Part shown: positions 3,873 to 21,211 of the stretch, in pieces
Layout: the number at the start of each line of letters is the position of its first letter
How positions within the stretch are numbered: the first letter of the stretch is position 1
Virus record (IMG/VR): IMGVR_UViG_3300025012_000293
Location: 1 to 22,674 of that record
Source: a virus
Length of the DNA stretch: 22,674 bases
Direction: 5' to 3' (one strand)
The notes under the pieces: generated by a model
Seen by the model: only the letters and a program-made list of their open reading frames with translations
The model's database searches: none
Told to the model about the DNA's origin: nothing
Made by a program: the position numbers and the translations under genes

Positions 3873-4604
3873 ATGATACTCAAAGATGGCAGTGAAACCC
3901 GAGACTCCCGTTGTGGCCTCATTTTCCAACCTGACCCAATCGCCAGACATCTTCTCTCTATGGCGGCACCGGACGGCGGGATTGACCTCAGTCAACGGGA
4001 ACTGATTAGTAAGTATCGGGTCAAGAAGTTTGGCGAGCCACTGCTCAATCAAGGGGAGTGGAGTGCTTGCGGTGGATTCGGCTTTGCTGCTTTTATGGAA
4101 CATGAACCGGGAATACGTACCCTTGGCGATGAGTGGGCGCTGCAGTTCTATTTCCGGGCGCAGGATAATGATATCTGGCCGGGGTCCGAGCGGCCTGGGT
4201 CCAAGCCCCTCAGCTATGGCACCTCAATTGCCGCTATTTTGCAGACCGCCGAGCAGGAGGGGCTGATCACAGAGTCCTGCAGGGCCTACACCGTCGATGA
4301 GGTTATCCGGGGCATTGATTACTACGGCAGTGCCATCCTCGGGCTTGAGTGGACCGAGGGGATGATGGAGCCCAGAAAAAAGGATGGCTTGAGCGTGCCG
4401 ACAGGAGAGATTGTCGGTGGCCACTGTACGGCCGGCACATTTATTAATCGACGCCGAAATATCATTGGTGGGCCGAACTCCTGGCCGGATTGGAATAAAA
4501 TTCAAAGAGGCTACTGGGTCATGGATCTTGATGACTTTGCCGAGGTGTTCCGGAATGGTGAGTGTGCCTTTGCAAGAAAAACGATTATTCAAGGGGGGAT
4601 ATAA
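3873..4604 (+). CDS. Papain-like (C1-type) cysteine protease
   Basis: The product is 243 residues from ATG 3873, which has GAGG at 3863-3866; an ATG at 3861 has no ribosome binding site. The papain catalytic plan is complete and in order: Gln60 and Cys66 in LLNQGEWSACGGFGFAAF (oxyanion Gln and nucleophile), His184 in VGGHCTAG, and Asn202-Trp204 in GGPNSWPDWNKIQRGYW, matching the family's HA...NSWG...GxGY region. There is no signal peptide and no long propeptide. C1 peptidases occur sporadically in phages. It lies immediately upstream of the muramidase with no gap, so it may help lysis, process virion proteins or act on host proteins. Fold assignment is confident; substrate unknown. Confidence 0.8.
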   Translation: MILKDGSETRDSRCGLIFQPDPIARHLLSMAAPDGGIDLSQRELISKYRVKKFGEPLLNQGEWSACGGFGFAAFMEHEPGIRTLGDEWALQFYFRAQDNDIWPGSERPGSKPLSYGTSIAAILQTAEQEGLITESCRAYTVDEVIRGIDYYGSAILGLEWTEGMMEPRKKDGLSVPTGEIVGGHCTAGTFINRRRNIIGGPNSWPDWNKIQRGYWVMDLDDFAEVFRNGECAFARKTIIQGGI

Positions 4605-5081
4605 ATGAAAATTTCTGATGTTTTACAAGTCGTAATCTACCCCGGGTTAGCTTTGCTCCCAAAGCAAATGAATTCTCCGGCTGCAATAGCCATGCTCTTA
4701 ACGATAGGCCTGCAGGAATCGAGATTTATTTATCGTAGACAAGTCGGCGGGCCGGCAAGAGGATTTTATCAATTTGAGAAGAAAGGTGGTGTAGCCGGGG
4801 TCCTGCTTCATCATCGCGGCGCTAGCCCACTGATCCGCGATGTCCTCGATCGGTTGCAGTATGATCTCGATCTCGATACCAGCTACGCAGCTATCGAACA
4901 TAACGATGCTTTGGCTACGGCATTCGCTCGTCTATTGCTTTGGACACTACCAGATGCCCTGCCTCAAAAAGACGAGTGCGAGCGATCCTGGGAACAATAC
5001 ATCGAGGCCTGGAGGCCAGGGAAGCCACATCGACAGACTTGGAATGAATTCTACAGGCAGGCATGGGGGATTTTTGAATAA
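4605..5081 (+). CDS. Lysozyme-like muramidase / transglycosylase-type endolysin
   Basis: The protein is 158 residues with a GGGG-rich ribosome binding site at 4593-4598. It contains IGLQESRFIYRRQVGGPARGFYQFE, the lysozyme-fold signature in which Glu38 of LQES is the likely catalytic acid and GPARGFYQFE follows as in phage lysozyme and lytic transglycosylase families. The remainder is helical and includes ATAFARLLLWTLPDALP. There is no secretion signal, so it would need a holin or another route to the cell wall. It probably cleaves the glycan strands of host peptidoglycan at the end of infection. Its stop overlaps the next start by one base (TAATG). Confidence 0.82.
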   Translation: MKISDVLQVVIYPGLALLPKQMNSPAAIAMLLTIGLQESRFIYRRQVGGPARGFYQFEKKGGVAGVLLHHRGASPLIRDVLDRLQYDLDLDTSYAAIEHNDALATAFARLLLWTLPDALPQKDECERSWEQYIEAWRPGKPHRQTWNEFYRQAWGIFE

Positions 5082-5296
5082 TGGGTAAAAATAACGCTGG
5101 TGAACTACTGACGCTAGAAATCAATAAAGCGCTTTGCAAGGACTGTAAAGAATGTGAAAAACTTCTCCCTAAATTCAGGTCTGTTTATAACGGGAAGATA
5201 AGTATTTCAGCTTGGGCTTATCAGAGAGAAGATGTTCGGAGAGGAGTCAAGTCGGTTGTTGAAGTTTGTAAACAGAAAGCCATTTCCTTATATTGA
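5081..5296 (+). CDS. Single-cluster [4Fe-4S] ferredoxin-like protein
   Basis: This 71-residue protein carries CKDCKEC (Cys19, Cys22, Cys25) near its N-terminus and a fourth Cys at position 63 in VCKQKAISLY. That is the layout of small single-cluster [4Fe-4S] ferredoxins, in which CxxCxxC lies near the start and a distant Cys precedes an xxAI motif. The Pro that normally follows the last Cys is replaced by Lys. The gene is coupled to the muramidase gene by TAATG. Electron transfer or iron-sulfur assembly for a phage enzyme would fit, but a zinc-binding protein of similar shape cannot be excluded. Confidence 0.6.
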   Translation: MGKNNAGELLTLEINKALCKDCKECEKLLPKFRSVYNGKISISAWAYQREDVRRGVKSVVEVCKQKAISLY

Positions 5297-9234: not shown

Positions 9235-9714
9235 TCACCTCCCGTAAAATTTTGGCCTGATCCCATATTCCCGAAAAAGGCATTTTAATTTAACCGTCAA
9301 TATTCCTGACTTTGGATACTCAGGGAATTTTGCTTTACCAGAATATATTGCCTTCAAACTATTATACGAAGATTTCATCAATTTTGGGGCCTTTTCTTTT
9401 TCGCTCGGGTGAATAAATGGCTTGTGATCTTCTCGGAGGTAGTCTGCCGTCCTTGACAAGAAGTTTGGCAGGCGTACCCGGCTAATTCCATAACGCCGGC
9501 AATTATTTTCCATTTTCCCCAAAAAGGTATTGCAGGCCCGGCAGAGGACTCCGCGGATCTGGCCTGTGCCTTTTACTTTCTTTTTGTGCTCATGATCCAA
9601 ACAAATTTCATATTCATTTATTTGTCTTCGGCAGATGGGGCACCGACCATCCTGATCAAGGAGAATGTCGTTGCGGAGTTGGGGGAGTTCTGAATGCTTG
9701 AGTTGCTTGATCAT
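9235..9714 (-). CDS. Recombination endonuclease VII (Holliday junction resolvase)
   Basis: The 159-residue protein is about the length of T4 endonuclease VII. It has the zinc-binding pairs Cys25/Cys28 (CPIC) and Cys58/Cys61 (CRAC), and the beta-beta-metal active site Asp40-His41-x-His43 (LDHEH) with Asn62 (CNTFLGKMENN). These positions nearly coincide with the T4 enzyme's numbering. The family resolves four-way junctions, mismatches and branches before packaging. There is no good ribosome binding site before ATG 9714. The gene just upstream encodes an HNH endonuclease, so an insertion may have replaced the original leader. Confidence 0.9.
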   Translation of the reverse strand: MIKQLKHSELPQLRNDILLDQDGRCPICRRQINEYEICLDHEHKKKVKGTGQIRGVLCRACNTFLGKMENNCRRYGISRVRLPNFLSRTADYLREDHKPFIHPSEKEKAPKLMKSSYNSLKAIYSGKAKFPEYPKSGILTVKLKCLFREYGIRPKFYGR

Positions 9715-9720
9715 AAGAAA

Positions 9721-10155
9721 TTAAAAAAGAACCAATTGTCCAGCATCTTCCCTCATTTTTTTAATATCTCGTAATCGCCTTCTTTGAATTGCTTTATAAT
9801 TTTCTATTGGTGACATCTGTTCTAAATGATCAGGCCTTACGCATATTCGATTTCTACAGCCATGGTCTATATGCATCTGTTCTATTATTGGTCCGATAAA
9901 TAAAGCATAAGATACCCTATGCGCCCATTTAGTAGATCCTCCCGGAGTAGGACAACAAGGATAGCCATTATGGATTCTTCCTTTCCATTCCCAACAGCCG
10001 CAGATAGTAATATTGATAAACTTTAAAAATATTTTCAGATGCGCATCCTTCTCTTCATCTGGGATGCTATAGGGCTTGATGATCATCTTCCCACACTTGC
10101 CAAAATGCCCTGCTTGAATCTTCTGCTCTAATCTCTGTTGCGCCGTCAGCCACAT
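9721..10155 (-). CDS. Free-standing HNH endonuclease (HNH_3 type)
   Basis: The 144-residue protein has CWEWKGRIHNGYP at its front, AHRVSYALFIG in the middle, and the HNH core HIDHGCRNRICVRPDHLEQM followed by SPIENYKAIQRRR. This is the HNH_3 layout of phage homing endonucleases and HNH nucleases. The ribosome binding site AGGAAATC lies before ATG 10155, partly inside the upstream stop. It sits between two unrelated replication-block genes and is AT rich, as expected for a mobile free-standing homing gene. It would cut alleles lacking the insertion. Confidence 0.85.
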   Translation of the reverse strand: MWLTAQQRLEQKIQAGHFGKCGKMIIKPYSIPDEEKDAHLKIFLKFINITICGCWEWKGRIHNGYPCCPTPGGSTKWAHRVSYALFIGPIIEQMHIDHGCRNRICVRPDHLEQMSPIENYKAIQRRRLRDIKKMREDAGQLVLF

Positions 10156-13122: not shown

Positions 13123-14412
13123 TTAATTTCCGGCTTCCATTTCCTCCTGGCGATCCATACAAGCATCCCATTTCGGGCAATCACTACATTCTGGTTTATT
13201 GTCGCAATCGATACCGAATTTATGGCCACTTGGGCATTCATCCTCATCATCGACCTTTGCTTTCCCCTTTCGGCCGGCAGCTGACTTACTCTCCTTTTCT
13301 GATCGCTTTTCCGCCGGTTTGCTTTGAGAATCAAACTCCGCTTCACAAGAATCAAAAACCTTGCACTTGGTGCATTTGCCCTTGGTATCGAAATCTTCAC
13401 CAAAGACGAACCCGTGCGGGCATTCATCTTCCGGTTCGACCTTGCGACCCCGGCGGGCAGGCCTTTCCGGTTCGGGCTCCGGCTCTTCCTGTTTTGCCGC
13501 CCTGGATCTCCTGGCCGGTTTTTCTTCCTCTTCCTCCGGCTCTGGTTCTGATCTCTGCCGGCGACCCCTGGCTGGCTTTTCTTCCGGCTCATCATCAGCA
13601 TCGGCTGACTTCCTGCGCCTGGCCGGCTTTTCTTCCGGCTTGTCATCTTCCTTGTCGTCACCTTCCTCATCAATCTCAAGGAAGATATTCTGTAGTTCCT
13701 TGTAAGATTTAACCAGAAGTACTTCATCCAGATTGATTACTTCATCAAGGATTCCTTCGTCAAGATCATCCCGTTCAATGAAAGAAATATTGCCCGCCTT
13801 CAAGAAATCATGACCATCAAAAGTTTCCTTCTCCCAGCGAACCCGGATATCAAAACCGCCTTCCAGATCCATAAAGGTCAGATATTCTTCATTGTCGGGG
13901 TCCATCAATTCTTTCTTGAATGGTTTCTCGAAGTTGGCATAAGAGAAGAACCAGAACATTGGATCGGACCACTTTTTGGTCTTGGGGTCCAGCACCTGTA
14001 TATTATACATGACCATATCCTGCGGCTTGGCTCGATCCGCTTCCTTGTCGGGGATCGAGGGATCTGCCTTGGCGGCGGAATAATACTCCATTATGGGGCA
14101 TGGTTTGCCAATCGACTTCGGGCTGATATATGGCTTCTTGTCGAGGCCGATTTGTCGAAAACGCTTGAATGGGCGTTTGTACCAGATATCGCCGGCAGGA
14201 GCCATCTCCCCATCCGGATGCTTCGGGTCGCTGACTACATAAGGTAGAATTCTGAGTGTGGCTTTGCCCTCCTCAGGGCTGTAAAATTGAGTTCCTTGCG
14301 GGATATTCTGGAACATCGTCCCGCCCCCACCTCCTGGTCCGGCTACCGCGGCGGCGGCTTTTGCCCGGTCCGCTGCCGAACCATACTTACGCTTTGTTTC
14401 TTTCCTTGCCAT
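13123..14412 (-). CDS. gp32-type single-stranded DNA-binding protein with repeat tail and two zinc-like modules
   Basis: The 429-residue protein starts at ATG 14412 with a strong AAGGAGGTAAG site. Residues about 30-245 form a gp32-like core (SPEEGKATLRILPYVVSDP, a PCPIMEYY segment, MFWFFSYANFEKPF). Residues 250-328 are an acidic/basic low-complexity tail built on an E-[KR]-PAR-x-R unit. Two copies of a module follow at 329-360 and 391-420: DECPxGxxFG, then C-x15-C-x2-C-x5-C (Cys331/347/350/356 and Cys393/409/412/418). T4 gp32 also has an acidic tail that binds partners but no such duplicated modules. The strong ribosome binding site and the following terminator suggest high expression. Confidence 0.85.
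   Translation of the reverse strand: MARKETKRKYGSAADRAKAAAAVAGPGGGGGTMFQNIPQGTQFYSPEEGKATLRILPYVVSDPKHPDGEMAPAGDIWYKRPFKRFRQIGLDKKPYISPKSIGKPCPIMEYYSAAKADPSIPDKEADRAKPQDMVMYNIQVLDPKTKKWSDPMFWFFSYANFEKPFKKELMDPDNEEYLTFMDLEGGFDIRVRWEKETFDGHDFLKAGNISFIERDDLDEGILDEVINLDEVLLVKSYKELQNIFLEIDEEGDDKEDDKPEEKPARRRKSADADDEPEEKPARGRRQRSEPEPEEEEEKPARRSRAAKQEEPEPEPERPARRGRKVEPEDECPHGFVFGEDFDTKGKCTKCKVFDSCEAEFDSQSKPAEKRSEKESKSAAGRKGKAKVDDEDECPSGHKFGIDCDNKPECSDCPKWDACMDRQEEMEAGN
13444..13638 (-). repeat. Low-complexity coding repeats in the SSB tail
   Basis: Four imperfect copies of a unit encoding E-[KR]-P-A-R-x-[RG]-R separated by acidic runs. At DNA level two copies (13568-13589 and 13619-13640) share about 22 bases with one difference. 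This is probably a recombination-prone segment that can change the length of the disordered linker. Confidence 0.7.
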
Positions 14413-15439: not shown

Positions 15440-15952
15440 TTAAAAAGGAACATCATCTTCCTCTTGCGCCTCTTTTTGATTACGAAATATTTGTTTTCTT
15501 TTGGTATATTTGTTACGATAAATCTTTTTGAAACATTCGAATATATCAACTCTATTTTGTTTTTCTTTGATAATATCGTCTCCGATGAATTTTGACATTT
15601 GAATAGCGGATGATCTCCAGGCCCGATAGTTAATTAAATCAGTTGGAGATATTATGTTGTATTTCTTATCGTTTATATTGATTATGATCGAATAAAATTC
15701 ATGTAATTGTTCACGATCACATGAGTCCCCGTGGCTTTGAATAAATAATTTCTTTTGTTGCCATATTTTTGAATATTTATCTTGGATATGGTCAAAAATA
15801 TCATTTAAATTATCCTTTTGAATAAGATAATCGTAATCTGATTTTTCTGTTTCAACTCCCCATGCCCTCGAACCAATAAATAGAGAAGATTCTTTTATTT
15901 TTTTTAAAAGATATCTTTTTACTTTATTATTTTCTTCAATAAAATTATTCAT
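15440..15952 (-). CDS. Nucleotidyltransferase-fold protein with SSB-like C-terminal tip
   Basis: The 170-residue protein contains FIGSRAWGVETEKSDYDYLI, the minimal nucleotidyltransferase signature: Gly27-Ser28, then Ser38-Asp39-x-Asp41 as the metal-binding pair. A third carboxylate may lie in INDKKYNII. Such proteins transfer a nucleotide to RNA, protein or small molecules. The chain ends QEEDDVPF, resembling the acidic DDDIPF tip of bacterial SSB that recruits repair and replication proteins. The gene is distinctly AT rich compared with the SSB and clamp genes, suggesting separate acquisition. GGGGAAA lies before ATG 15952. The substrate is unknown. Confidence 0.8.
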   Translation of the reverse strand: MNNFIEENNKVKRYLLKKIKESSLFIGSRAWGVETEKSDYDYLIQKDNLNDIFDHIQDKYSKIWQQKKLFIQSHGDSCDREQLHEFYSIIININDKKYNIISPTDLINYRAWRSSAIQMSKFIGDDIIKEKQNRVDIFECFKKIYRNKYTKRKQIFRNQKEAQEEDDVPF

Positions 15953-15964
15953 GTATTTCCCCGA

Positions 15965-18019
15965 TTAAAAAGGAATATCCGTTCGTTCATCATTGAAAAC
16001 CGCCTTATAACAAGCCAGGGTCAAACCTGCCTTTCCGGTATCATAAAACGGTTGGGAGAACTCATCCATGATCAAAAAGGCATGGAGGCTATTCTGTTTC
16101 AGGAGAATTGAATTACAATAACTCAAGACCAGCCGACGAATACCTTCTTCGTCCTGATCCTTCAAACCGCTCAGGATCTTCGCAATCTTTGACCAGGAGG
16201 TTTGACTTTTTGCCTTCAGGAGTTCCCGGCACAATTCAATCCCTTCTGAAGTAAAGCGTTCCTCCTCATCGATAATCTCCTGCGCCTGCTCTTCGGTCAA
16301 GCCGATTACCTTCTCCAGTAGCTTCATTGCATTGCGGGGATGACCATCAGCTTTTTCAACAATCATCTCCACGACCGCATCAGATACCGGGGATTTCTCC
16401 CGCCTGGCGGTTTTCTTAACAAGGCCGGCCATCAAGTCCGGTTCAATTGTTGATACCTCAAAGCTGGTACAGCGACCCCTGACGGTGGGTAATAAACGCT
16501 GCGGGTCGGTGGTGCAGAGAATGAAGTAAACATGGCTGGGGGCATCCTCAAGCATTTTCAGGATAGCATTCTGGGCCTTATTCTTTTCACTGGCCCCACC
16601 AGTCCCAAGCATGTGACAATTATGAACAGGAAACCCATTGACAAAATAAGATGGATGGGTTTCGACCTGCAAATCATACATTTTTATAAAGCCGCTATTT
16701 CTTTCTTTATCGCCAATAATACTTTGGAAAGATCGGTCATTACTTCCTCGTTTGTAAACCTCAGAATATTCCAACCTCTCCTCTTGAGTATTTTTGTTTT
16801 CTTTTGATCTTTTAAGATATTCTGTTTCAATTTGTGGCCAGATCCGTCTATCTCTATCCCTATTTTCAATTCCTGATTGCCGATATCTACCTTGTAGCAG
16901 GTCGGAAGATTCATGGAGGTAGTATATTCCTTCTTCTTCCCTTCTGGCATTCGATCCGCTAAAGGAATAGCAAGTTCCGTTTTCCAACCCAAGGCAATTG
17001 ATAATATTTTTTGAGATTCGCTTAATTTCCCATTGCCACCACGCTCTCCAGTCCAAATATTTAACGTTCCATTTATTCGCTTGGTTTCTTTTGCTTTTTG
17101 GATTGTTTTTTCGCAATGAGAAGGGTTTTTTAACTTCATTCTTTTGGATGATTCCATAGCCATTCTTTCTTTCGTGGCCAAATCCATAACCTCCCATGCT
17201 TTTTTGATTCCAATTGCCGCCTTCTGCCTGGCTTCTTTTCCATGAAGACCAATTCTTGTTTCTGGATGCTGACTTAAATATCGACCGAAGCATGCTTTTG
17301 AGCAATATTTTTGCTTGTTCCATTTTGCTCTGCCGGTCAATATTTCTTTGCATTGATGACATCTTAAAGGTTGATTCTCTTTCATTTTTTTCTCCTATAA
17401 TAGAATTTGCCGAACTTATGCTATTCATATTATAGGAATCATATAAATAAATCAAGTGAGAATTTTTTATATTTTCAGCCTTTACCCATCCATGATCAGT
17501 AAAAAATAAATGTTCTTTAGTAGTTATAATCGATTGTTTTTTAAAATTTAATTTTATTAACCTGGATAAAGGAATTGATTTTACCGCTGATGAAATTATT
17601 TTATCAACTCCATTCAATGAAACTAATTCATCTCCTGGAAATAATTTTTCAATTGCTTTTTCACCGCTTGGTGTTTTGATCATGGTACCGGCAGGAAAAC
17701 ACTCATCGATAAGCCAGACCCGGCAAGTGCTTTCCGGGTGCCTGGGCTTGAAGCGCATCTGATTCTTGATTTCCCGGACGGTATCAATACCATTGAATTG
17801 TGCAGAATCGATCTCCCGATAGTCATCGCTTTTGGCTCCGAGCATATCAGTTATGATTCTACCAATGGTTGTTTTCCCGCAGCCAGTCGGGCCTGAAATA
17901 AGTAAGGCATGGGGGAAGTTTTCCCGGCGATCAAAAAGGCCTTGAATGGCCGCAATGGTGGTTTTATTGCCGACCATCTGCTGCAGGGTTGCCGGGCGGA
18001 ATCTGGTATCAAGCGACAT
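15965..18019 (-). CDS. Clamp-loader ATPase (DnaX/gamma-tau type), intein-interrupted
   Basis: The frame encodes 684 residues with AAGGAG before ATG 18019. The N-extein (residues 1-106) has Walker A GPTGCGKTT and ends at VWLIDE in Walker B. The intein occupies residues 107-467. The C-extein (468-684) continues CHMLGTGGASEKNKAQNAIL, sensor 1 FILCTTDPQRLLPTVRGRC, and a helical collar. After splicing a 323-residue AAA+ protein with DECH-type Walker B would result, matching gamma/tau proteins without tau extensions. The SRC arginine-finger motif reads GRC. The protein ends ERTDIPF, close to the bacterial SSB tip. It should load the clamp encoded at 21439-22440 for the polymerase at 18518-21211. 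Confidence 0.92.
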   Translation of the reverse strand: MSLDTRFRPATLQQMVGNKTTIAAIQGLFDRRENFPHALLISGPTGCGKTTIGRIITDMLGAKSDDYREIDSAQFNGIDTVREIKNQMRFKPRHPESTCRVWLIDECFPAGTMIKTPSGEKAIEKLFPGDELVSLNGVDKIISSAVKSIPLSRLIKLNFKKQSIITTKEHLFFTDHGWVKAENIKNSHLIYLYDSYNMNSISSANSIIGEKNERESTFKMSSMQRNIDRQSKMEQAKILLKSMLRSIFKSASRNKNWSSWKRSQAEGGNWNQKSMGGYGFGHERKNGYGIIQKNEVKKPFSLRKNNPKSKRNQANKWNVKYLDWRAWWQWEIKRISKNIINCLGLENGTCYSFSGSNARREEEGIYYLHESSDLLQGRYRQSGIENRDRDRRIWPQIETEYLKRSKENKNTQEERLEYSEVYKRGSNDRSFQSIIGDKERNSGFIKMYDLQVETHPSYFVNGFPVHNCHMLGTGGASEKNKAQNAILKMLEDAPSHVYFILCTTDPQRLLPTVRGRCTSFEVSTIEPDLMAGLVKKTARREKSPVSDAVVEMIVEKADGHPRNAMKLLEKVIGLTEEQAQEIIDEEERFTSEGIELCRELLKAKSQTSWSKIAKILSGLKDQDEEGIRRLVLSYCNSILLKQNSLHAFLIMDEFSQPFYDTGKAGLTLACYKAVFNDERTDIPF
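16619..17701 (-). mobile_element. Intein in the clamp-loader Walker B site
   Basis: The intein is 361 residues. Block A is CFPAGTMIKTPSGEKAIEKL starting with the nucleophile Cys1; block B is TTKEHLFFTDHGWV, with Thr61-x-x-His64. Blocks F and G are YDLQVETHPSYFVNGFPVHN ending His360-Asn361, with Cys as the +1 extein residue. All residues for standard class 1 splicing are present. The insertion lies within LIDE/CH, the conserved ATPase core, a typical intein site. Between blocks (about residues 106-339) the intein frame has no recognisable endonuclease and is low complexity; the same DNA encodes a nuclease in the +1 frame. Confidence 0.9.
16684..17385 (-). CDS. DUF559/Vsr-like endonuclease nested in the intein in another frame
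   Basis: The 233-residue protein is read in the +1 frame relative to the intein, on the same strand. It starts at ATG 17385 with AGGAG at 17396-17392, six bases upstream. The N-terminus is a Cys4 finger (Cys9, Cys12, Cys28, Cys32; CHQC...KYCSKAC), then a basic helical linker. The C-terminal PD-(D/E)xK/Vsr-like core has Asp167, IEIDGSGH (Glu178, Asp180, His184), Asp193 and GWNILRFTNEEV, the hallmark order of DUF559 and of Vsr-like (EDxHD) homing endonucleases. It most likely cuts intein-free clamp-loader alleles to spread the intein. The frame fit, domain match and ribosome binding site make this clearly a real gene. Confidence 0.88.
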   Translation of the reverse strand: MKENQPLRCHQCKEILTGRAKWNKQKYCSKACFGRYLSQHPETRIGLHGKEARQKAAIGIKKAWEVMDLATKERMAMESSKRMKLKNPSHCEKTIQKAKETKRINGTLNIWTGERGGNGKLSESQKILSIALGWKTELAIPLADRMPEGKKKEYTTSMNLPTCYKVDIGNQELKIGIEIDGSGHKLKQNILKDQKKTKILKRRGWNILRFTNEEVMTDLSKVLLAIKKEIAAL

Positions 18020-18517: not shown

Positions 18518-21211
18518 TCAAAAAATAAATAGTGATTTAAACTTCTTCAGATCATCCTTTGTCGTTACATAATCAGGATCAAATGCATTTATCTGGGTCA
18601 GGATTGCAGTTACATTTTTATTCACTCCCGGAATCTTTTCGCTTGGGGTCGATGAAAAAAAGCCTTTTCGCTGTTTCTCCCCGAGTTTGGCTGCGGCAAT
18701 CTTTTCGGCTACGGTTTCGCCAACCCCATTGATTGAAATAAACGGGGCATACAAATTTCCTTTCTTATCGCAATTCCATTTAATAGCATCTGAAATACCG
18801 ATTTTTGGTAGATTGATTTTCAAACCAAGCCGCCTGGCCTCCCTGATATATTCGATGTTTTTTGTCTTATCTCCAAGGGTCAGGCAGGAGGCAAGAAATT
18901 CATTGGGGAAATATGTTTTGCTATACATATCCCAATAGGTTATCATGGAATATTCTACAGAATGAGATAGGTTGAAGGAATACGAACCAGATTTTGACAT
19001 CATATCCCAGATTTGTATGGCTTTCTTTTCCGGCACCGTTCCTTGGTTTTTACATCCTTGCAGAAATTCTTCTTTATATTTATCAAAAGCAGCATTACCA
19101 AGACTCTTCCCGATAATCTTCCGAATCTTATTACAAGTGGCCATTGAAATGCCAGCCAATTGATTAACCGCTTTCATAACCTGCTCTTGATAAACGATTA
19201 CCCCGAATGTTTCCTCTGTCAGTTTATCAAAGATTGGATGGATCTTTTCAACCTTGGCTTTACCTCGTTTCCTCTTGGAATACAGCTCGGTCATTCCAGA
19301 TTGCATGGGGCCAGGACGCCACAGAGCCGTCACCGCATAGAGCATCTGGAAGTTCTCTACCCCGAGTTCCTTACAATAATTGGTCAGGCCATTTGATCCA
19401 ATTTGGAAGGCCCCGACCGTATTCCCCTCGGATATTTCGGCAAAGACTTTTGGATCATCAAAGGTAATTTTTTTGTAATTGATATCAATCCCGTGATTCT
19501 GCTTTACCATTCGCCGGCATTCATTCAGGATGGTCAAGGCTGAGAGACCAAGAATATCCAGTTTCATCAACCCACAATACTCTGCATTCCGCATATCCCA
19601 ATTAGCCACTATAGTGCCGGCCCGGGTAACTAGATTGCAATTGTGGCCTCCCCGGAGATCCTTTTCAGAGATGCAGACTCCGGCTGCGTGCTGGCCATGG
19701 CCCCTGATCTGTCCTTCAATGGATTGGGCCACCTCAATCACTTCCGGATATTTCTGGCCAAATCTCCGGCACTCCGGGACCTCATTGAAAGACTTCTCGA
19801 TCTCCTGGCCTACTTCGGCTTCTACCATCACTTTGGCAGCAAAGTCGACCTCTGATAAGGGGATATCGAAAACGCGGCTTACATCGCGAAGTACGCCCTT
19901 TCCTTTCATGGTCAGGAAATTGGAAAGACCGACTACATTATACTCCCCGTATTTATCAGAAAGATATTTACGGACATCGTCCCTCCGGATATCTTCAAAA
20001 TCCATATCGATGTCCGGTAAATCTTTCCTTTCTTCTGAGACAAATCGAAAGAACTCTGTACCATAAATGAGAGGGTCGCAATCAGTGATATACAAAAGGT
20101 AAGCAACAAGACAACCGCCTGCCGAACCACGACCAGGCCCGGTCATTACATTATTCTTTTGGCACCATTGAATAAGGTCCCAGACGATGAGGAAGTAGCG
20201 AACGAATTTCTTGGAGATGATCAGTTTCATTTCCATCTCAATCCGTTCTTTGTAGGGCTTCAGTTCCTCGAAAGTTCGTCCGCGAATTCTTCTTTTTAAT
20301 CCCTTGTAAACCATATTCTCAAGAAACAATAATTCCGATTCTTCATTAAATGATTTCTTGATACTTGGCAGATATACTTCCTGCTGCTCAATCCGGAAGT
20401 TCTCGCAAAGTCTGGCGACCTTGCCGGTCATCCTGATTGCCCTCCTGATCTCATGGTCAGTTAAAACTCCTTGATCCTGGAAGGCCTCGACCATTTCTTC
20501 TTCTGAACGGAGGAAGAGGCCGGTACAGTTAAATTTCCATCTATTCGGGTCATTCCAGGTTCTTTTCGATTGGATAGCCAGGAGCACTTCTTGATGTTTG
20601 GTTGCTTCGTTGGTCGGATAATGAGCATCGTTAGTGGCAACGATTTGAATCCCGAGTTCCTTGGATATCTTCAGGGCCAGTTTATTTACCTTTATCTGCT
20701 CGGGGATATCATGCGGCATAACCTCCAAGAAAACCCGATCCTTTCCAAGTGCTTCAATATAATCAAGGATCATCCAATTTTCGATATCAAGAAGCAGATA
20801 AGACATGGAGCAGGCCGAAAGGATTACCAGGCCGTCAATATGTTTCAGGAGGGTTTTATGGTCGATCCTGGGCCTGTGGTAGAATCCTTCAATATTTGCA
20901 ATAGTCAGGAGCTGCAGGAGATTCCGCCAGCCAGTTTGGTTCTCGACAAGAAAAGTAATATGATACCGAGTTTCCCCTTTCTGTTTCTGAGTCATATCCG
21001 GAACGAGATACATCTCTGCTCCGATAATTGGCTTTATGCCGGCTTCAAGGCATTGTTTCTGGTGTTCAATTGCTCCGTCGATATTTCCGTGATTGCTGAG
21101 GGCCAAATGAGTTTGTCCGAGTTCTTTGGCCAGGGCCGCGTATTGCTTGGAGGTTCCGACCCCATCAAGGACGGAGTACTCATTGTGGAGATGTAGGTGG
21201 CAGAAACTCAT
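18518..21211 (-). CDS. dnaE: C-family replicative DNA polymerase (PolIII alpha / DnaE-like)
   Basis: The 897-residue protein begins with an intact PHP domain (HLHLHNEYSVLDG at 5-17, SNHGNIDGAIE at 39-49, IIGAEMYLV at 62-70, TNDAHYPT at 193-200). The C-family palm follows: GPGRGSAGGCLVAYL (358-372), PDIDMDFED with catalytic Asp402 and Asp404, and KLDILGLSALTIL with Asp552. These positions nearly match E. coli DnaE. A helix-hairpin-helix (FISINGVGETVAEKIAAAK) lies close to the C-terminus. The protein lacks the OB-fold and tau-binding domain of the roughly 1160-residue cellular enzyme and ends KKFKSLFIF, which could be a clamp-binding tip. It is the main polymerase of the replisome. ATGA overlap couples it to the gene upstream. 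Confidence 0.95.
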   Translation of the reverse strand: MSFCHLHLHNEYSVLDGVGTSKQYAALAKELGQTHLALSNHGNIDGAIEHQKQCLEAGIKPIIGAEMYLVPDMTQKQKGETRYHITFLVENQTGWRNLLQLLTIANIEGFYHRPRIDHKTLLKHIDGLVILSACSMSYLLLDIENWMILDYIEALGKDRVFLEVMPHDIPEQIKVNKLALKISKELGIQIVATNDAHYPTNEATKHQEVLLAIQSKRTWNDPNRWKFNCTGLFLRSEEEMVEAFQDQGVLTDHEIRRAIRMTGKVARLCENFRIEQQEVYLPSIKKSFNEESELLFLENMVYKGLKRRIRGRTFEELKPYKERIEMEMKLIISKKFVRYFLIVWDLIQWCQKNNVMTGPGRGSAGGCLVAYLLYITDCDPLIYGTEFFRFVSEERKDLPDIDMDFEDIRRDDVRKYLSDKYGEYNVVGLSNFLTMKGKGVLRDVSRVFDIPLSEVDFAAKVMVEAEVGQEIEKSFNEVPECRRFGQKYPEVIEVAQSIEGQIRGHGQHAAGVCISEKDLRGGHNCNLVTRAGTIVANWDMRNAEYCGLMKLDILGLSALTILNECRRMVKQNHGIDINYKKITFDDPKVFAEISEGNTVGAFQIGSNGLTNYCKELGVENFQMLYAVTALWRPGPMQSGMTELYSKRKRGKAKVEKIHPIFDKLTEETFGVIVYQEQVMKAVNQLAGISMATCNKIRKIIGKSLGNAAFDKYKEEFLQGCKNQGTVPEKKAIQIWDMMSKSGSYSFNLSHSVEYSMITYWDMYSKTYFPNEFLASCLTLGDKTKNIEYIREARRLGLKINLPKIGISDAIKWNCDKKGNLYAPFISINGVGETVAEKIAAAKLGEKQRKGFFSSTPSEKIPGVNKNVTAILTQINAFDPDYVTTKDDLKKFKSLFIF

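Follow-up and report, generated by a model that had tools for sequence, protein, structure and literature searches.

The window, by which we mean the whole 22.7-kb virus record that was analysed, contains a clamp loader gene interrupted in its Walker B motif by an intein (DE/CH at the insertion point, with VHN as the last intein residues) and, inside this intein, a second complete gene in another reading frame (Table 1). The codons of the nested gene are offset by one nucleotide after those of the intein, i.e. it lies in the +1 frame. An AGGAG stands 7-11 nt upstream of its ATG and the nested frame is closed by a TAG (17395-17397) three codons ahead of this ATG, so that the nuclease frame is not read in from further upstream. 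The first-pass annotation of this DNA had described a 233-codon nuclease gene with its own AGGAG site, nested at +1 in an intein frame that stays open throughout, and we recovered both frames, the site and an intein frame devoid of stops. It had also placed the nuclease exactly between splicing blocks B and F; the gene is indeed inside the intein, but its last ~31 codons overlie the conserved strand that precedes block F.

Table 1. Positions of the clamp loader, the intein and the nested endonuclease gene in the window.
Feature	Position	Strand	Remarks
Clamp loader precursor ORF, 684 aa	15965..18019	-	N-extein 106 aa, intein 361 aa, C-extein 217 aa
N-extein	17702..18019	-	Ends at Walker B ...WLIDE
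Intein, 361 aa	16619..17701	-	Cys1 to His-Asn, then Cys+1
Intein block B, TTKEHLFFT	17498..17524	-	Invariant H64; coordinates counted from Cys1
Shine-Dalgarno AGGAG of nested gene	17392..17396	-	Within the intein frame
Nested endonuclease gene, 233 aa + stop	16684..17385	-	+1 frame
Domains of nested endonuclease			Cys4 finger at N end; DUF559/EDxHD domain at C end
Stretch with amino-acid-level constraint in both frames	16687..16779	-	Nuclease residues 203-233, intein residues 308-338
Intein blocks F and G, YDLQVETHPSYFVNGFPVHN	16619..16678	-	
C-extein	15965..16618	-	Starts at CHMLG

A second IMG/VR contig (L008), which may come from a related sample, is 100% identical to the window over 6637 nt that include both frames. 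A consensus scan for a separate promoter of the nested gene gave 5 promoter-like sites against 4.8 expected. The window has no Rfam match at the gathering score and no group I intron RNA was found around the nuclease, which speaks against a group I intron-encoded nuclease. Among the neighbours on the same strand, a 170-aa nucleotidyltransferase-like ORF with a weak RlaP match (15440-15952) adjoins the clamp loader downstream, and a DnaE-type polymerase III alpha of 897 aa, cellular forms of which are longer, is located at 18518-21211. A 429-aa protein (13123-14412) resembles phage single-strand binding proteins, has no PHROG match and carries two C-terminal repeats with a motif of the CPxGxxFG...CxxC type. 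Two neighbouring HNH-like ORFs of 159 and 144 aa, recognised by eye among replication genes (9235-10155), are possibly free-standing nucleases.

The nested protein matches the Pfam family DUF559 (PF04480) with an E-value of 1.5e-12. In the alignment of related nucleases, residues C9, C12 and C32 are invariant and C28 nearly so, D167, E178, D180 and H184 are invariant, and these motifs are kept in all aligned copies. The predicted structure (mean pLDDT 87) has the homing endonuclease I-Bth0305I (PDB 3R3P) as its best match, both by Foldseek (E 3e-3, prob 1.00) and by profile (E 9e-4). The predicted fold and the conserved acidic and histidine residues support an EDxHD (Vsr-like/DUF559) endonuclease, and the Cys4 finger and Vsr-like domain proposed by the first-pass annotation are in agreement with these data. 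For the outer frame, the Pfam models of intein splicing and of the Hint domain give scores just under the curated cut-offs; the end residues C1, H64, H360 and N361 are invariant and C+1 is present in the window. In the AlphaFold model of the intein both ends mostly have a pLDDT of 84-95 and residues 307-315 form a confident strand, residues 94-285 being mostly below 50. The nearest solved Hint fold is that of gp41-1, and the MchDnaB and RecA inteins also match. Judged by its splicing motifs and predicted Hint fold, the element appears to be a class 1 intein.

Using tblastn with the nested protein, we found matches in phage records within regions annotated as "DNA helicase" or as hypothetical. 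In all seven annotated phage loci that were inspected (Vibrio phages, including CP-T1, Pseudomonas phage MR14 and Corynebacterium phage phi673) the nuclease is unannotated and sits within an intact intein, at +1 relative to it, the intein being inserted in the Walker B motif of a helicase (DE/C...HN/CH, slashes marking the intein ends). Viral contigs and bacterial genomes were then scanned with the nuclease alignment and 103 loci, some of them near-copies, were classified. A stop-free frame spans the nuclease, always at +1, in 102 of these 103 loci, and the intein ends were found wherever the contig extends far enough; the sole exception (L074) is a free-standing nuclease without a surrounding intein. 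Among the host genes are those of clamp loaders, SF2 and SNF2 helicases and giant proteins with a methyltransferase domain, and the nested loci occur in viral contigs and in genome bins from many bacterial phyla. Weak DUF559 matches in genomes (L111-L139), which are short and often GC-rich, were used as rough controls only.

A second survey started from the intein and was blind to the nuclease: the N domain of helicase-type inteins alone was used for the scan (the N-domain alignment A2 being too variable to scan with), and 80 loci were obtained. The same nuclease lies at +1 in 68 of them, one of which (L175) is a deletion remnant. Of the others, six have an HNH nuclease at +1 and another has one at +2; an antisense Vsr-like nuclease occurs in a single locus, three are mini-inteins of 138-146 aa and one is cut by the contig end. 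The nuclease-blind survey thus agrees with the first, and the nesting is not an artefact of the search. An in-frame version of the nuclease was found in none of the 80 intein-first loci and nowhere in the nuclease-first set, and neither set contained a split form.

To measure how unusual the open intein frame is, we considered 86 distinct nucleases (<90% identical), the synonymous codons of which were either permuted or drawn from the codon usage of the host gene. No stop is observed in the intein frame of these 86 copies, compared with 762 (permutation) and 1101 (host usage) expected, and the remaining sense frame carries 1435 stops versus 1287 expected. A T at the third codon position never precedes an AA, AG or GA codon start (0 of 5098 positions), against 27% of 11263 positions elsewhere. 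For the window alone, 14.0 and 15.7 intein-frame stops are expected under the two models and none of 1000 draws reached zero under either; the ~11 chance stops estimated in the first-pass annotation were therefore of the right size. Free-standing relatives carry about the number of stops that the resampling predicts (9 observed versus 10.9 expected in L074, 8 versus 9.1 in L239 and 25 versus 21.4 in L240). In the HNH +1 family, the intein frame is open in every close member inserted at the TerL-like TGEGG site, with 0 stops versus 129 expected in 12 copies. An open frame arising as a by-product of chance or composition, with function in just one of the two, nuclease gene or intein, has a likelihood of several percent in a few short, GC-rich copies (L086, L099 and L107), but the zero count over the 86 copies and the 5098 at-risk wobble positions, together with the stops of the free-standing relatives, makes this explanation scarcely credible, and synonymous resampling rules chance openness out. 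Nor would an intein functional on its own account for nuclease motifs conserved in every aligned copy. Selected dual coding, which had been suggested for this one locus, is strongly supported far beyond it, by the absence of stops in the survey, by the controls and by constraint on both frames at the 3' end of the nested gene.

This last constraint was studied with 80 distinct nucleases, by holding the nuclease proteins fixed, resampling their codons so as to avoid intein-frame stops and comparing the conservation of the intein-frame residues, with the first ~200 codons as an internal control. The excess conservation of the intein frame has a mean z of 0.7 in the first half of the gene and reaches z 58 in the last ~31 codons, these scores ignoring shared ancestry. 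Facing the invariant Trp205 of the nuclease, the intein has Val in 70 of the 80 copies, and facing the invariant Arg209 it has Glu in 62 of 80, within a conserved run R-V-E-S-V/I-E-V/I-Y; the nuclease motif LGWxVLRFTN overprints an intein beta strand. The last ~31 codons are under amino-acid-level constraint in both frames. The low pLDDT of intein residues 94-285 and the confident strand at 307-315 point to a predicted disordered loop for the unconstrained part and place the constrained part in the Hint fold.

The preference for the +1 frame can be considered in the light of the genetic code. From the point of view of the nuclease, each intein codon consists of the third position of one codon and the first two of the next (N3/N1N2). 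A stop in the intein frame thus needs T at N3 before AA, AG or GA and, as NNC is a synonym of NNT throughout the code, there is no dipeptide for which a stop in this frame would be unavoidable. Intein-frame stops are removable synonymously, so that any nuclease could be cleared of them with its protein unchanged and the +1 relation is suited to nesting. By contrast, the other sense frame necessarily contains a stop wherever Met precedes Ile, Lys, Met, Asn or Thr. This argument bears on the accessibility of frames and is no proof of cause, and within a family shared ancestry likewise accounts for a large part of the constancy.

Other nested arrangements were also encountered. HNH nucleases are nested at +2 in L180/L241 and L242, the inteins of which belong to a different host gene and have an open frame (P ~0.02-0.04 each), and these rare copies contain no ATG-A junctions. 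HNH nucleases with several Cys pairs lie at +1 in TerL-like inteins (TGEGG site; L173, L177, L203 and L219-L238), where the HNH ORF continues across blocks F and G and ends near the end of the intein. Since two HNH families are likewise nested, one at +1 and one at +2, nesting would have arisen more than once. In a single case (L157, positions 4196-5086 on the minus strand of IMGVR_UViG_3300032046_000029) a 403-aa intein has a nested 296-aa nuclease with a zinc finger and a Vsr-like domain in antisense, codon-aligned, and the intein frame is open. This antisense arrangement requires the avoidance of TTA, CTA and TCA, which are avoided in 40 of 40 Leu/Ser codons (P ~0.008). On balance we consider it probable that dual-coding inteins are widespread and long-lived mobile elements that were formed several times, that the code steers the choice of frame and that the main family overprints. 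In such a multi-origin scenario, the nuclease kinds would be EDxHD at +1, HNH at +1, HNH at +2 and one Vsr-like in antisense; the synonymously clearable frames would be the same-strand +1 and the codon-aligned antisense; and the ~31-codon stretch, where the nuclease core motif meets the intein beta strand, would go beyond tolerated overlap.

Helicases of Vibrio siphophages show presence and absence of the element at one exact site among close relatives. The nested intein is found in 1.194.O, 1.088.O and K391, a 150-aa mini-intein occupies the same site in K389, K459 and PS65A.1, and the site is empty in 1.024.O, 141O35-1 and 1.251.O, which are exactly 1068 nt shorter with flanks 82-94% identical. 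Empty, mini-intein and nested alleles are what a homing cycle would give. In a 196-aa intein (L175, positions 4001-4588) just the C-terminal end of the nested nuclease is left, apparently after a deletion en route to a mini-intein. Nuclease distances correlate no less with those of the exteins (r 0.60) than with those of the intein N domain (0.43), a result compatible with exchange between nuclease and intein as well as with its absence, and the nuclease tree gains no firm root from the free-standing relatives, the branches being long.

Taken together, the locus is very probably a mobile intein with its homing endonuclease encoded apart, by a gene nested at +1. We propose that ribosomes starting at the clamp loader start codon would make an extein-intein-extein precursor, in which the Hint domain (intein residues 1-92 and ~288-361) would fold and the ~190 residues read through the nuclease gene would form an unstructured loop; the intein would then excise itself and rejoin the Walker B motif. 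Other ribosomes would begin at the internal AGGAG-ATG and release the nuclease as a free protein, which would cut intein-free alleles near the Walker B codons, repair copying the whole element in. Selection would be of two kinds. Along most of the nested gene, the intein frame need only be stop-free, and in the last ~31 codons each protein would need its own residues. In some copies, folding or splicing might suffer from the loop translated from the intein frame.

A Shine-Dalgarno-like motif with a start codon in the nuclease frame was found 80-112 residues after Cys1 in 66 of 105 loci (63%), versus 12% of control windows, and the clamp loader copies often have a full AGGAG or GGAGG ~100 residues past Cys1. 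This enrichment at the right place, about fivefold, makes internal initiation the preferred mechanism. A programmed ribosomal frameshift out of the intein frame, which would produce a fusion of extein, intein N domain and nuclease, could be suggested by the +1 relation fixed in all main-family copies, as well as by the 37% of loci that have no Shine-Dalgarno in this simple test, some with a long open nuclease frame upstream, the start codon being ambiguous in several GC-rich or giant-gene copies. The +1 relation has a further explanation in common descent and the code, and in the window a TAG shuts the nuclease frame just three codons ahead of the ATG, which has a canonical AGGAG, so that we regard frameshifting as very unlikely, particularly in the window.

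The preferred reading also supposes that the intein still splices. An out-of-frame HNH endonuclease, the ShiLan domain, has been described in a few mycobacteriophage methylases, in which the authors found neither splicing motifs nor a ribosome-binding site and concluded that it is no intein (Arsenault, Gosselin and Gogarten 2025, PMC11855218); a further example of this insertion has been reported (PMC12613952). Our search of the literature for a published precedent returned the ShiLan papers only, this HNH being the closest case. Such insertions exist, and splicing in our loci is predicted, so that one may ask whether the nested inteins have ceased to splice and retain the loop, as proposed for ShiLan, the nuclease being a simple selfish insert. 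This seems highly improbable, given that all intein-end residues (C1, block B His, HN and C+1) are conserved, that both Hint halves are confidently predicted, that the intein frame is constrained at a Hint strand within the overlap, and that the insertion splits Walker B, so that an unspliced ATPase should be dead. Both systems have an out-of-frame homing-type endonuclease in an insertion with an open host frame, but our loci differ by their splicing motifs and Hint fold, Shine-Dalgarno site, EDxHD nuclease, many host genes and a measured dual amino-acid constraint.

Large inteins with an in-frame endonuclease, such as PI-SceI, share with the nested inteins the Hint domain, the location of the nuclease between the two splicing halves (N and C) and a conserved insertion site in an essential nucleotide-binding motif. 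Intein homing endonucleases are generally regarded as in-frame domains; here, by contrast, a distinct gene, in a different frame and equipped with a ribosome-binding site, encodes the nuclease, and the protein is predicted to be made free of the intein. I-Bth0305I, an EDxHD homing endonuclease and the best fold match, is associated with a group I intron and not with the reading frame of an intein.

Fractured phage genes with split inteins and Vsr-like endonucleases have reportedly been described by Dassa et al. 2009, and the first-pass annotation had suggested that the window may hold an unbroken intermediate on the way to them. Such genes are said to be phage replication genes with a Vsr-like nuclease between the halves of the intein, and so to share with our loci the nuclease superfamily and the kinds of host gene; the nearest solved fold, gp41-1, is moreover a phage-type split intein. 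In fractured genes, though, the intein and its host gene are reportedly split, with the nuclease gene free between the parts, whereas in the window they form one 684-aa ORF. The nested arrangement is stable across phyla and host genes and is conserved over at least 86 divergent copies, no relative with a broken intein frame was found in ~100 loci (the free-standing L074 has no surrounding intein), and no split intein was found among the ~100 nuclease-found or the 80 intein-found loci. Loss leads instead to mini-inteins (L175, L190 and L204). It is therefore very unlikely that the locus stands midway between an intein that has received a nuclease and a fractured gene, the intein of which is split; a historical link to fractured genes, in either direction, is possible.

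The mobile intein belongs to a known kind of element, and what sets these loci apart is a nuclease that occupies a second frame as a separate, presumably functional gene. A nuclease can thus inhabit an intein without being fused to it, and in more than 100 loci and several kinds of host gene, terminase-like ones included, it constitutes a concealed second gene that the phage annotations examined do not record. For the study of same-strand gene overlaps in prokaryotes these inteins provide a natural and highly replicated system, which comes with a clear prediction on which frames can overlap and in which the free-standing relatives serve as controls.
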